Below are positions 3,393-24,458 of a stretch of DNA of 64,000 nucleotides, in pieces (the stretch's first letter is position 1; each line of letters opens with the position of its first letter). The translations under genes and the position numbers were made by a program. The stretch is from Actinomycetota bacterium (GTDB lineage Bacteria; Actinomycetota; Thermoleophilia; Miltoncostaeales; Miltoncostaeaceae), in assembly GCA_016870155.1 (NCBI GenBank), contig VGCE01000002.1, positions 124,001 through 188,000 of the forward strand, given 5' to 3'. Below the pieces are notes generated by a model, which saw nothing but the letters and a program-made list of their open reading frames with translations, had not been told where the DNA came from and searched no databases.

Positions 3393-3550
3393 CGGGGGCT
3401 CCTTCAGGTTTGGTGCACCGAGTCTGCTTGGGACGGTACCAGCGTTACCGCCCCACCAACGCCGAGGGGGCCCCAGTTGGCCCCCTCGGATCCCGCCTGT
3501 TTCCTTCATTTGTCCCTTCTGCAGAACTCTCCACAGAAGAGACCAAGTGG
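3271..3550. repeat. Duplicated segment, copy C, ending at ssrA
   Basis: Partner of 644-925. Similarity runs from inside lipoprotein 3, through the ribosome site and hairpin (3464-3487), to AAGTGG at 3545-3550. There the ssrA 3' end begins and the two copies diverge at once. The boundary coincidence suggests copy A arose from DNA adjacent to ssrA, or that this is an element end. Confidence 0.8.
3464..3487. terminator. Intergenic hairpin, copy C
   Basis: Third copy of the GAGGGGGCC-CCAGTT-GGCCCCCTC hairpin, about 58 nt downstream of the ssrA 3' end on the minus strand and about 72 nt upstream of lipoprotein 3. It could end ssrA transcription. Confidence 0.55.
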
Positions 3551-3912
3551 ACCCGGCCGGCACTGCCCCGGCGTCCGAAAGCGTTTCCAGATGGGTTTCT
3601 CCGAGCGCAGCCGGTGATGAATGTCTCGGGGAGGGCGCCATCTCCGGCAAATCACCTCTCCCCCAGCCCCTCCTGAAATCTCGCCCCTTGGCCGAGGAAC
3701 CCTGCCTCGGGGCCAGGACCACTATGCGACGCCGGTGATCCCCCTCATGGTCCGAAGGGTGGGCCGACGACTCTCAGACCCGCTTACTAGGCGGCGAGAG
3801 CGAGCTGACGGGTGTCCGCAGCTACGTTTGGTTCCCTGTTGGTAACGCGGTCCTCAGGGTCCGCGGCTCGCTTGCCAATCCTTCTCCGCCCCGTCGAAAC
3901 TGGTTCGGGCCC
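3545..3912 (-). ncRNA. ssrA: tmRNA (transfer-messenger RNA) with atypical 3' end
   Basis: About 365 nt on the minus strand. The 5' end GGGCCCG then AACCAGTTTCGACGGGG is the tmRNA acceptor and D-like region. The tag frame ends (A)ADTRQLALAA then TAG TAA (tag codons 3790-3819), a typical ALAA degron; the resume codon is GCG at 3817-3819 or GCT just before it. The conserved CTTTCGGACG precedes the T arm, and CGGGTCC (3549-3555) pairs fully with the 5' GGGCCCG with one G-U. Two features are odd: the T arm is GCCGG-GGCAGTG-CCGGC, without the TTCRA loop, and the sequence after the discriminator A is CTT instead of CCA. With SmpB it rescues stalled ribosomes. TACCCT lies about 29 nt before the 5' end as a possible -10. 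Confidence 0.9.
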
Positions 3913-21428: not shown

Positions 21429-23069
21429 CTGCCCGCCGAGACGCCCCCGACGGTCGGCGACCGGCTGATCGAGGCCATCCGCGCGGCGGGCTGCGAGCGG
21501 GTGTTCGGCGTGCCGGGTGACTTCACCCTGCTGCTGAACCACATGCTCGACCAGTACCCCGGGTTCTTCGTGGGAACCAGCGATGAGCAGGGCGCGGGCT
21601 TCGCGGCCGATGCCTACGCGCGCCTGCGCGGCATCGGCGTGGTGCTGGCCACCTGGGGGGTCGGCGGGCTCAAGCTGGTCAACAGCACGGCACAGGCCTG
21701 GGCCGAGAGCGTGCCGGTGGTGGTGATCTGCGGTTCCCCGGGGCTGGGCGAGCGCGAGGGCGACCCGCTGCTGCACCACAAGGTCAAGGACTTCGACACG
21801 CAGATGCGCGTGATGCAGGACGTCACCGAGTACGCGGCGTACGTGCACGACCCCGACACCGCCCCGCGGCTGATCGCCGAGGCCTTCGCCACCGCCATGC
21901 GCGAGTGCCGGCCGGTGTACCTGGAGATCCCGCGCGATGTGGTGGGGCTGCCGTGCGGGCCGCTGCCCGACGTGCCGCCGCCGCCCGACGCCGATCCCGA
22001 TCCCGGGGTGCTTGCCGCGTGCCTCGACGACGTGCAGGACGCGCTCGGCGCCGCCGAGCGCCCCGCCGTGATCTCGGGGGTACTGGTGGCGCGCCTCGGC
22101 CTGCAACGGCACGTGGACGCCCTCGCGTGCGCCGCCGGGTTCCCCGTGGCCGAGACCCTGCTCGGCAAGTCGTCGGTGGGATCGGACGATCCATGGTTCC
22201 GGGGCGTGTACGCGGGAGCGATCAGCTCCGACGAGGAGGTGCGCGAGCTGATCGATTCAGCGGACCGCGTGCTGGTGCTGGGCGCCTACATCAGCGACCT
22301 CAACACCGGCCTGTTCACCACCAACATCGACCGCGCCGAGACGGTCATCTCGCACCAGAAGATCACCTACGTGGGCGTGCGCGGCTACGACGGCGTGGGC
22401 GTCAGGCACCTGATGCAGGGCCTGGTGGATCGCTTCGGCGCCATCCTGTCCGACTCCCAGCCCGCGCCGCGCGAGCGCCCGCCCTTCATCCCGCAGCCGG
22501 GGGTGGCGCTGAGCGCCCGCGCGCTGTTCGAGGCGCTCAGGTCGCGACTCGGGCACGGGCACACGATCATCGCCGAGGCCGGCGACTCGCTGTTCGGCAG
22601 CGCAGACCTGCGGCCCGAGGAATCCGGTTTCCTGGCCACCGCGTACTACGCCTCGCTCGGCTACGCGGTGCCCGCGGCCCTTGGCGCCGGCCTCGCCCGC
22701 CCCGACCGCCGCCCGGTGGTCATCGTGGGCGACGGCGCATTCCAGATGACGGCCCTCGAGCTGGGCGGCATGGCCCGGGTGGGCGTGCATCCGGTGGTGG
22801 TGGTCATCAACAACGACGGCTACGCCACCGAGCGCCCGATGATGAAGGGCGCGTTCAACGACGTTCCCCGCATGCGGTACGCGAAGTTCCCCGACGCCGT
22901 GGGCTCGGGCACCGGCGTGAAGGTGGATACCGAGGACGCCTTCGTCGCGGCCCTCGACGAGGCCCTCGACGACCCGTCCCAGCTGCGCCTCATCGAGGCC
23001 GTCACCCCACCCGACGACATCAGCCCCCAGCTGCGCAACCTCACGGCAGAACTCGGAAAGCGCGTCTAG
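21429..23069 (+). CDS. Thiamine-diphosphate 2-keto acid decarboxylase (IpdC/PDC family)
   Basis: A 546-residue ThDP enzyme that decarboxylates a 2-keto acid such as indolepyruvate, phenylpyruvate or pyruvate to the aldehyde. The N-terminus TVGDRLIEAIRAAGCERVFG matches the family. It has the conserved Glu in GTSDEQGAGFAADAYARL, an adjacent His pair (LLHHKVKDFD) typical of PDC/IPDC, and the ThDP motif GDGAFQMTALELGG...NNDGY. The first conventional start (GTG 21501) would delete about 24 conserved residues; in-frame CTG at 21429, five bases after the infA stop and behind AGGG, gives a normal length. The substrate is uncertain. Confidence 0.82.
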   Translation: MPAETPPTVGDRLIEAIRAAGCERVFGVPGDFTLLLNHMLDQYPGFFVGTSDEQGAGFAADAYARLRGIGVVLATWGVGGLKLVNSTAQAWAESVPVVVICGSPGLGEREGDPLLHHKVKDFDTQMRVMQDVTEYAAYVHDPDTAPRLIAEAFATAMRECRPVYLEIPRDVVGLPCGPLPDVPPPPDADPDPGVLAACLDDVQDALGAAERPAVISGVLVARLGLQRHVDALACAAGFPVAETLLGKSSVGSDDPWFRGVYAGAISSDEEVRELIDSADRVLVLGAYISDLNTGLFTTNIDRAETVISHQKITYVGVRGYDGVGVRHLMQGLVDRFGAILSDSQPAPRERPPFIPQPGVALSARALFEALRSRLGHGHTIIAEAGDSLFGSADLRPEESGFLATAYYASLGYAVPAALGAGLARPDRRPVVIVGDGAFQMTALELGGMARVGVHPVVVVINNDGYATERPMMKGAFNDVPRMRYAKFPDAVGSGTGVKVDTEDAFVAALDEALDDPSQLRLIEAVTPPDDISPQLRNLTAELGKRV

Positions 23070-23097: not shown

Positions 23098-23222
23098 GGT
23101 GACTGTCACCAACGCCTTGGGGTGACTGTCACAACTACTGCGCGGCCGCTACAAAGTTCCTGCTCATGTGGGTCAAACGCCCGTTTGGTGACAGTCACCG
23201 ACGCCCGGCGGTGACTGTCACC
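23098..23222. repeat. Four near-palindromic GGTGACTGTCACC sites in two pairs
   Basis: Sites at 23098-23110, 23121-23133 (last base A), 23187-23199 (centre A, opposite orientation) and 23210-23222. Within each pair the spacing is 23 bp; the pairs are 66 bp apart (start to start). The arrangement is an imperfect large inverted repeat. It could be REP-type DNA or a cluster of dimeric-regulator sites, although it lies between convergent gene ends. Confidence 0.8.
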
Positions 23223-23249
23223 GGCGCCTTCACCGGCCCCTCCGGTGTC

Positions 23250-23275
23250 TTGACATCCGAGACGCGCGCTAGCGT
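23250..23275 (+). promoter_or_regulatory. Promoter-like TTGACA / TAGCGT pair pointing into mtnA
   Basis: TTGACA at 23250-23255 and TAGCGT at 23270-23275, with a 14-bp spacer (short for sigma-70). It would read antisense to mtnA after passing the hairpin at 23328-23360. No start codon follows closely, so a small or antisense RNA is the only likely product. Confidence 0.3.
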
Positions 23276-23327
23276 CATCTGCGTCGGGCGTCCCCCCTTG
23301 GATCCCGGCAATGGCGTTCGCGCCAGC

Positions 23328-23360
23328 GGGTCCCGCAGTTCTCGGCAGGCTGCGGGGCCC
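23328..23360. terminator. Terminator hairpin between decarboxylase and mtnA
   Basis: 11-bp stem GGGTCCCGCAG/CTGCGGGGCCC with one G-U pair and an 11-nt loop, 21 bp from the mtnA stop. It can serve both convergent transcripts. Confidence 0.6.
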
Positions 23361-23381
23361 GTCTACGTCATGGGGCCGGCC

Positions 23382-24458
23382 TCAGTGGCCTGCGGCGTCC
23401 CAGGCGTCGCGAAGCGAGCGCTCATACGGCGCGCGGTGCACTCCCTGCTCGGTGATGATGGCGCTCACCAGTCGCGCGGGCGTGCGATCGAAGGCCGGGT
23501 TCGCCACGGGGGCGTCGGGTGACGACGCCGCGCGCCCGAACAGCGACACGCCCCGCACCTCGTCGGCCGCCCGCTCCTCCACGGGGATCTCCGCGGCCGA
23601 GGGCATCGAGAGGTCGAGCGTGGACGTGGGCGCAGCGACGAAGAAGGGGATGCCGTGCTCGCGGGCGAGGATCGCAACGCCGTAGGTGCCGATCTTGTTG
23701 ACCACGTCGCCATTGGCCGCGATGCGGTCGGCACCCACCACCACATGCGTCACCCGGCGCTGCGCCATGAGCATGGCCGCCATGTTGTCGCTGATGAGCG
23801 TGTAGGGGATGCCGTCCTGCGCGAGCTCCCACGCGGTGAGGCGCGACCCCTGCAGCAGCGGGCGCGTCTCGTCCACGATCACCGTGACGGTGGGGTCATT
23901 CTCGTGCGCCGCGCGCACCACGCCGAGCGCCGTGCCGTAGCCACCCGTCGCGAGCGCGCCTGCATTGCAATGCGTGAGGATGCTCGCGCCGCGGATGAAC
24001 AGCGGAACCGCATGGCGCCCCATCTCGTGGCACCGCTCCACCTCATCCGAATGGATCGCCCGGGCCGCGTCGGCCAACTCGGCGGCGATCTCATCCGGCG
24101 TGCCCTCGTGGTCGGCCACGATGCCCGCGAGCCGGTCCACTGCCCATGCAAGGTTGACCGCCGTGGGACGGGCCTCCCGCAGCCCGGTGATCGCCCGGCC
24201 CATCTCCGCGTCGAATGACTGACGGCTGGCGCTGGTGGCCGCCGCGCGGTGGGCGGCCAGCGCCACGCCCATGGCCCCAGCCACCCCGATTGCCGGAGCT
24301 CCGCGCACAACCATCGCCTTGATGGCGTCCACAACCTCGGGCCAGCTGGTGAGGGTGACCTGCACCACCTCGCCGGGCAGGCGCGTCTGGTCGAGCATGA
24401 CCACGGCCCCGTCGCGCAGGACCAGAATGTCCTCGGGGGCGAGGCCGGGCGCGGGCAT
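23382..24458 (-). CDS. mtnA: S-methyl-5-thioribose-1-phosphate isomerase
   Basis: A 358-residue MtnA that converts 5-methylthioribose-1-phosphate to 5-methylthioribulose-1-phosphate in methionine salvage. Motifs: RGAPAIGVAGAMGVALA, the catalytic Cys in THCNAGALATGGYGTALG (about 165), and the catalytic Asp in VGADRIAANGDVVNK (about 242). ATG 24458 gives the normal length; the frame remains open far upstream antiphase to ahcY, which is not coding. It lies 53 bp downstream of ahcY, another enzyme that handles the products of S-adenosylmethionine use. Related enzymes isomerise 5-deoxyribose phosphate, a possible alternative. Confidence 0.92.
   Translation of the reverse strand: MPAPGLAPEDILVLRDGAVVMLDQTRLPGEVVQVTLTSWPEVVDAIKAMVVRGAPAIGVAGAMGVALAAHRAAATSASRQSFDAEMGRAITGLREARPTAVNLAWAVDRLAGIVADHEGTPDEIAAELADAARAIHSDEVERCHEMGRHAVPLFIRGASILTHCNAGALATGGYGTALGVVRAAHENDPTVTVIVDETRPLLQGSRLTAWELAQDGIPYTLISDNMAAMLMAQRRVTHVVVGADRIAANGDVVNKIGTYGVAILAREHGIPFFVAAPTSTLDLSMPSAAEIPVEERAADEVRGVSLFGRAASSPDAPVANPAFDRTPARLVSAIITEQGVHRAPYERSLRDAWDAAGH

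Follow-up and report, generated by a model that had tools for sequence, protein, structure and literature searches.

Paired 13-bp palindromes in an actinobacterial genus are probably repeats of a RAYT transposase system

The window analysed here (64,000 nucleotides) carries a cluster of four copies of a 13-bp palindrome, GGTGACWGTCACC. These probably represent REP/TIR-like repeats of a RAYT/TIRYT system, i.e. of a REP-associated, IS200-type Y1 tyrosine transposase. The reading is based on two correspondences: the dispersed palindromes of the source genome match the repeats that flank its own RAYT gene, and the palindromes of sister species match those of their own RAYT copies. RAYTs are a known case of domesticated transposases with an unsettled benefit to their hosts. 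In the present case, a single genus has three RAYT-linked palindrome types, and sites are kept while their spacers diverge, even where no RAYT of the palindrome-flanked type is found. Such a system helps to separate a repeat that is a travelling element from a repeat that is kept for a job, and it offers natural comparisons for tests of binding, cleavage and maintenance.

The cluster and its copies

The cluster consists of three exact copies and one near-exact copy arranged in two pairs, and it occupies a 312-bp gap between convergent predicted genes (Table 1). The 23-bp period is exact within both pairs, and the starts of sites 2 and 3 are 66 bp apart. The earlier note had described four sites in two pairs between convergent genes; the coordinates, the period and the location are correct, but one of the four sites is mismatched at its last base. 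Allowing up to two mismatches, the 13-mer has 11 matches in the window; 100 shuffles gave 2.42 matches on average and always fewer than 11.

Table 1. Palindrome sites and neighbouring genes in window coordinates
Feature	Position	Strand	Remark
Palindrome site 1	23098..23110	.	GGTGACTGTCACC
Palindrome site 2	23121..23133	.	GGTGACTGTCACA, last base mismatched; 23 bp from site 1
Inter-pair stretch	23134..23186	.	Unconserved
Palindrome site 3	23187..23199	.	GGTGACAGTCACC, the same 13-mer on the minus strand
Palindrome site 4	23210..23222	.	GGTGACTGTCACC; 23 bp from site 3
Thiamine pyrophosphate enzyme gene	21501..23069	+	Neighbour, outside the element
mtnA (S-methyl-5-thioribose-1-phosphate isomerase)	23382..24458	-	Neighbour, outside the element

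An Rfam scan of the window detected a tmRNA only (positions 3545-3912, minus strand, 80.4 bits) and nothing in the palindrome cluster below an E value of 0.5. Immediately downstream of the palindromes, positions 23248-23374 (plus strand) are conserved in 11 genomes of the same genus with a mean column identity of 82%. This stretch begins with TCTTG(A/C)CATCCGAGAC, which has a promoter-like look, and ends in a GC hairpin. It has no Rfam match, and four of its 31 predicted pairs are changed on both sides. It is a candidate for an undescribed small RNA heading towards mtnA.

The palindrome recurs across the window's own assembly (G000, 1.81 Mb in 16 contigs): there are 68 exact copies of GGTGACWGTCACC and none of a reversed control pattern. 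When 29 stretches around sites outside the window are combined with the window's own sites, and near-exact partners are counted, the G000 sites form 39 clusters, 24 of which contain two to four palindromes and 15 a single one (14 of the latter within predicted coding sequence). The single sites speak against pairing as a general rule. In the loci fetched from the four genomes G000, G014, G011 and G005, pairwise site distances peak at 23 bp (31 times) and 17 bp (11 times). A second arrangement, with a 16-18-bp period, often has longer common flanks (e.g. GGGGT on one side), as is expected of dispersed copies. A MITE with a conserved interior between 23-bp pairs was rejected because spacers and inner stretches vary among loci. 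Attachment sites at tRNA genes were also dropped, since none of the 29 fetched site loci contained a tRNA or tmRNA. A separate array of four GGTGTCAGGCACC palindromes with a 21-bp period is found in tandem at G000:C2:51622-51697; this type is otherwise rare in G000.

Of 19 other genomes of the genus, ten have no copy of GGTGACWGTCACC, two have one and seven have 9-61 (G014, 61; G011, 30; G016, 26; G005, 25; G007, 24; G013, 9, among them), and outside the genus, among 41 genomes of its family and class, five have one copy and the rest none. These counts already contradict the notion that chance and codon usage produce the 13-mer through Val-Thr-Val-Thr coding stretches in GC-rich DNA, which is extremely improbable. 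Several coding sites do read V-T-V-T, but the intergenic pairs are noncoding, more than half of the 19 related genomes contain no copy, and in G000 the A/T-centred 13-mer outnumbers the G/C-centred one 68 to 5 although ACA and ACT together make up only 3.2% of the Thr codons in the window's predicted genes.

Across the four genomes, predicted coding sequence contains 72 of the 120 clusters, some of these within variable stretches. In gaps between genes of the same direction, 20 of 23 clusters are closer to the upstream stop codon than to the downstream start, with median distances of 22 bp to the stop and 84 bp to the (predicted) start. The tetranucleotide GTAG or its complement CTAC lies within 8 nt of 11 out of 183 sites, against a background of 3.5%. 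Placement after stop codons and between convergent genes would suit palindromes that act mainly as RNA, forming hairpins at transcript 3' ends that terminate transcription or protect the mRNA. So would the strength of the hairpin: folded as single-stranded DNA, sites 3 and 4 form one hairpin with a 13-bp stem (-18.2 kcal/mol, z -6.05). This explanation is nevertheless very unlikely, as no T tract follows the cluster in the stretch inspected, many clusters lie within genes, and a hairpin needs neither self-palindromic 13-mers nor a 23-bp period. An effect of RNA hairpins could also be a by-product of a RAYT repeat. A plain operator for the neighbouring genes was set aside because of the position and of the lack of an evident common function, and an operator is unlikely to be the primary identity of the cluster.

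A RAYT gene bordered by the same palindromes

The G000 RAYT gene (G000:C2:239043-239681) encodes a protein of 212 residues and is preceded by two copies of the palindrome and followed by three. The protein scores 91.8 bits with the NCBIfam model REP_Tyr_transpos (cut-off 80) and matches Pfam Y1_Tnp, whereas its score with the IS200 model is 23.4, below the cut-off of 55. Residues H60 and H62 of the HUH motif and Y119 are invariant in 22 homologues from named public genomes; these are the catalytic residues in this family. A sequence-only search of the Protein Data Bank with the RAYT gave no match. With an AlphaFold model of the L184 homologue (pLDDT of 90.9) standing in for the G000 protein, the top fold match is 4er8, a solved RAYT bound to its own REP hairpin.

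In G000, the palindrome-bordered RAYT gene lies between metW and a metX-like gene (named from its sequence; the Pfam assignment is alpha/beta hydrolase). The same gap is about 50-60 bp long and RAYT-free in G011, G016, G007 and G014, and it is similarly short in G006, G001 and G015. Of the 16 loci readable past the gene, only that of G000 has a RAYT at the metX side, and some of the gaps hold other genes. Several RAYT-free metX-metW gaps contain another palindrome, for example GGGGACTGTCCCC in G015 and GGTGTCTGGCACC in G008. Yet a further type, GGGGACWGTCCCC or GGGGACAGTCACTGTCCCC, is present in this gap at loci L308, L309, L313, L316 and L322.

The 20 genomes of the genus contain 15 RAYT matches spread over 11 genomes. 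Six genomes have a RAYT of the palindrome-flanked type, and in all six the palindromes are found on both sides of the gene. Their sequences fall into three types: GGTGACWGTCACC in G000 and G015, GGGGTCAG(A/T)CCCC in G003 and G018, and GGTGYCWGRCACC in G010 and G017. The flanks make a prediction that could have failed, namely that each palindrome is dispersed in the genomes whose RAYT it borders, and this was found for both of the other types. GGGGTCWGACCCC, taken from the flanks in G003 and G018, has 37 copies in G003, 26 in G018, 27 in G004 and 23 in G002, compared to 0-1 in the other 16 genomes, and GGTGYCWGRCACC has 48 copies in G010, 44 in G017, 33 in G015 and 27 in G008, compared to 0-10 in the other 16. 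A 490-base stretch of the G017 locus is also found in a public metagenome-assembled contig labelled Actinobacteria bacterium.

The match in the reverse direction, from repeat to RAYT, fails at times, as several repeat-rich genomes do not have a RAYT of the palindrome-flanked type. The search of the genus found no RAYT match in G014, G016, G007 and G013, all of which have GGTGACWGTCACC sites, and the sole match in each of G011 and G005 is without flanking palindromes; G002 and G004 carry GGGGTC sites but have no palindrome-flanked RAYT. The gene may have been lost from draft assemblies. Either these assemblies dropped the RAYT at its repeats, or the sites outlive the RAYT and something else keeps them.

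An exact-palindrome scan found no such flanks at the remaining nine of the 15 RAYT matches. A second RAYT type without flanking palindromes occurs in several species (L153, at G000:C3:216161-216700, and L146-L152), mostly beside a predicted gene for a protein of 103 residues, and is possibly a vertically inherited, domesticated copy. The scores of L153 (77.6) and of the G015 RAYT (70.6) are just under the REP_Tyr_transpos cut-off.

Taken as a RAYT repeat, the 13-bp palindrome would be the recognition signal of the transposase. The repeats would spread as units of one, two (with a 23-bp or 16-18-bp period) or four palindromes, probably by way of folded single-stranded hairpins, and would come to lie mainly a short way behind genes or in stretches that encode variable protein loops. 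The gene for the transposase would move as a unit with the same palindromes at its borders. Binding or cleavage of the palindromes by the transposase, the hairpin route and the reason for the retention of sites are what we infer.

Persistence of sites, type switches and spacing

The palindromes persist between species while the DNA between them diverges. At least one of G014, G011 and G005 has a cluster at the orthologous place for 25 of the 39 G000 clusters. Seven groups of orthologous 23-bp units show agreement at 230 of 234 palindrome bases, a value inflated by the choice of units with sites in both species, compared to 47 of 91 spacer bases and, for the ten bases beyond the unit, 51 of 90 on each side. 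For instance, a pair within an Lhr-like helicase gene is found in G000, G016 and G014 and is almost complete in G013. Another pair, in the gap upstream of this gene, occurs in G000, G016, G014 and G011; in G007 it is half-decayed, and G019, G013, G012, G001 and G006 lack it. No repeat was seen to have inserted with a target duplication. Two sites that lie 69 bp apart in an aminotransferase gene originated by substitution in an unbroken frame, not by insertion; the first of them has ACA in five site-rich genomes and ACG in G019.

At two places the palindrome differs between species in register, with both arms changed together. In a glycosyltransferase gene, it is GGTGACAGTCACC in G000 and G011, GGTGCCAGGCACC in G012 and GGTGTCAGGCACC in G013; the site is degenerate in G019, and G006 and G008 are unaligned over the stretch. 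In an intergenic region, it is GGTGACAGTCACC in G011, GGTGCCTGGCACC in G012, and GGTGCCTGGCACC with one end base changed in G005. These two cases are suggestive of type replacement in place but are not a proof of it. Our literature search, which covered few subscription papers, found no report of a palindrome position that is kept between species with its type switched in place. Other palindrome types are also seen at the places of GGTGAC sites, at three of seven sites in G012 (L338, L339 and one in L326), two of nine in G013 (L344 and L351, with the unfetched C101 counted as a miss and one GGTGAC-only locus left out), none of six in G009, and three of 19 loci each in G008 (L360, L362 and L376) and G003 (L288, L290 and L295). 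The latter counts were read from maps by eye and mostly concern the same intergenic region rather than the same register; chance is guessed to account for one to two of them in all, and no conclusion rests on them.

The distances between adjacent sites in the range of 40-130 bp, taken by rule as one set per orthologous group, are 56, 56, 66, 66, 67, 67, 69, 78, 78, 90, 102 and 111 bp (n=12). They fit a period of 11.25 bp with R of 0.89 (0.70 at 10.5 bp). When periods of 9-13 bp were scanned, the best value was higher than that of any of 3000 random sets, the sample being small and the null consisting of uniform integers. The inter-pair lattice of 11.2 bp is near the in vivo helical repeat of DNA, which passages of PMC1762422 give as fitted values of 11.08-11.60 bp for lac repressor loops.

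Such phasing is what one might expect if a host DNA-binding protein (a regulator or a nucleoid-associated protein) used the palindromes as operators or architectural sites, binding two or four of them on the same face of the helix and looping or bridging the DNA; the RAYT would then merely insert at the sites or exploit them. The agreement of orthologous palindromes over their spacers, the clusters shared between species, the coding-sequence sites whose two arms change jointly and the retention of sites where the palindrome-flanked RAYT type is not found all speak for this explanation as well. It is unlikely, given that the palindrome type follows the RAYT flanks in six out of six genomes, that the intergenic sites are near stop codons and not promoters, and that the neighbouring genes have no evident common function.

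The six site-bearing genomes in which no palindrome-flanked RAYT type was detected leave an opening for a host factor, and also for adoption of the palindromes by the host. In the latter case, positions would be kept through speciation while the sequence is switched in register to the specificity of a resident protein (A-T to C-G or T-G at bases 5 and 9), pairs on the 11.2-bp lattice would be bridged on supercoiled DNA, and the domesticated transposase or its successor would be a chromosome-organising or regulatory factor. Such adoption is rather unlikely. The retained sites may have a role in the host, and their helical phasing together with their retention leaves room for the nucleoid-protein or chromosome-organisation role that had been put forward for the cluster.

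Comparison with known systems

The palindromes are most economically read as a RAYT-associated repeat system similar to the TIRYT/TIRtron kind, in which RAYT-like genes are bordered by repeats that have no GTAG, are self-complementary in some cases and also occur dispersed as dimers or clusters (passages of Di Nocera et al. 2013, PMC3733652). Both have a Y1 transposase with the HUH motif and a tyrosine, and in both the flanking repeats have no GTAG and are also scattered singly, as dimers and as clusters. The half-palindrome GGGGTCAG of G003 and G018 fits the TIR consensus GGGGWSAS as given there, but GGTGACAG, the half of the G000 palindrome in the window, does not. Three linked palindrome types in one genus, in-register switches between types and a transposase in which no C-terminal HTH domain is detected also set the present system apart.

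The suggestion of a REP cluster in the earlier note is borne out in kind, as the palindromes are dispersed, species-specific, RAYT-flanking and mostly just after stop codons, although they do not carry GTAG. REP/RAYT systems, REPtrons and REPINs share with them, in the parts of PMC2817692, PMC3116915, PMC8266576 and PMC3686654 that describe these properties, the transposase family, palindromic repeats that form pairs, a species-specific repeat class that matches the RAYT, and location after genes. A REP class can differ among related RAYTs, according to a passage of PMC3686654. Unlike classical REPs and REPINs, the system described here has no GTAG tag. The classical REP is an extragenic stem-loop of 20-40 nt; here, the two palindromes of a 23-bp pair fold together into a single hairpin, but conservation covers a core of 13 bp and some palindromes stand alone. 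Over half of the clusters are in predicted coding sequence, some of these in variable stretches. REPs usually exceed 100 copies per genome (in the relevant part of PMC2817692), whereas the maximum among the 20 genomes of the genus is 68 exact copies. TnpAREP proteins of subclass 2.1 have a C-terminal HTH (PMC6006769); Pfam detected none in the 212-residue G000 RAYT, only Y1_Tnp.

With the IS200/IS605 elements (IS608, ISDra2) the system shares a predicted HUH/Tyr fold and, presumably, recognition of single-stranded hairpins, but the G000 gene is above the RAYT cut-off and below that for IS200. In the literature covered, the 13-mer does not appear in print, and no apparently related work on RAYT palindromes or on REPINs and their transposases in Actinobacteria turned up.

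A further similarity is to the matS sites of Escherichia coli, which are bound by MatP and have the motif GTGACRNYGTCAC. The half-sites GTGAC and GTCAC are common to both, but the palindrome described here has one central base instead of three, and its sites are paired.

In other bacteria, 17 of 80 fetched RAYT loci were examined, and repeats that recur within the flanks are present in 13 of these and absent in four. RAYT genes of other phyla (L192, L204, L209, L224 and others) have a common inverted flank that resembles GGGGTCAGGTCTT.
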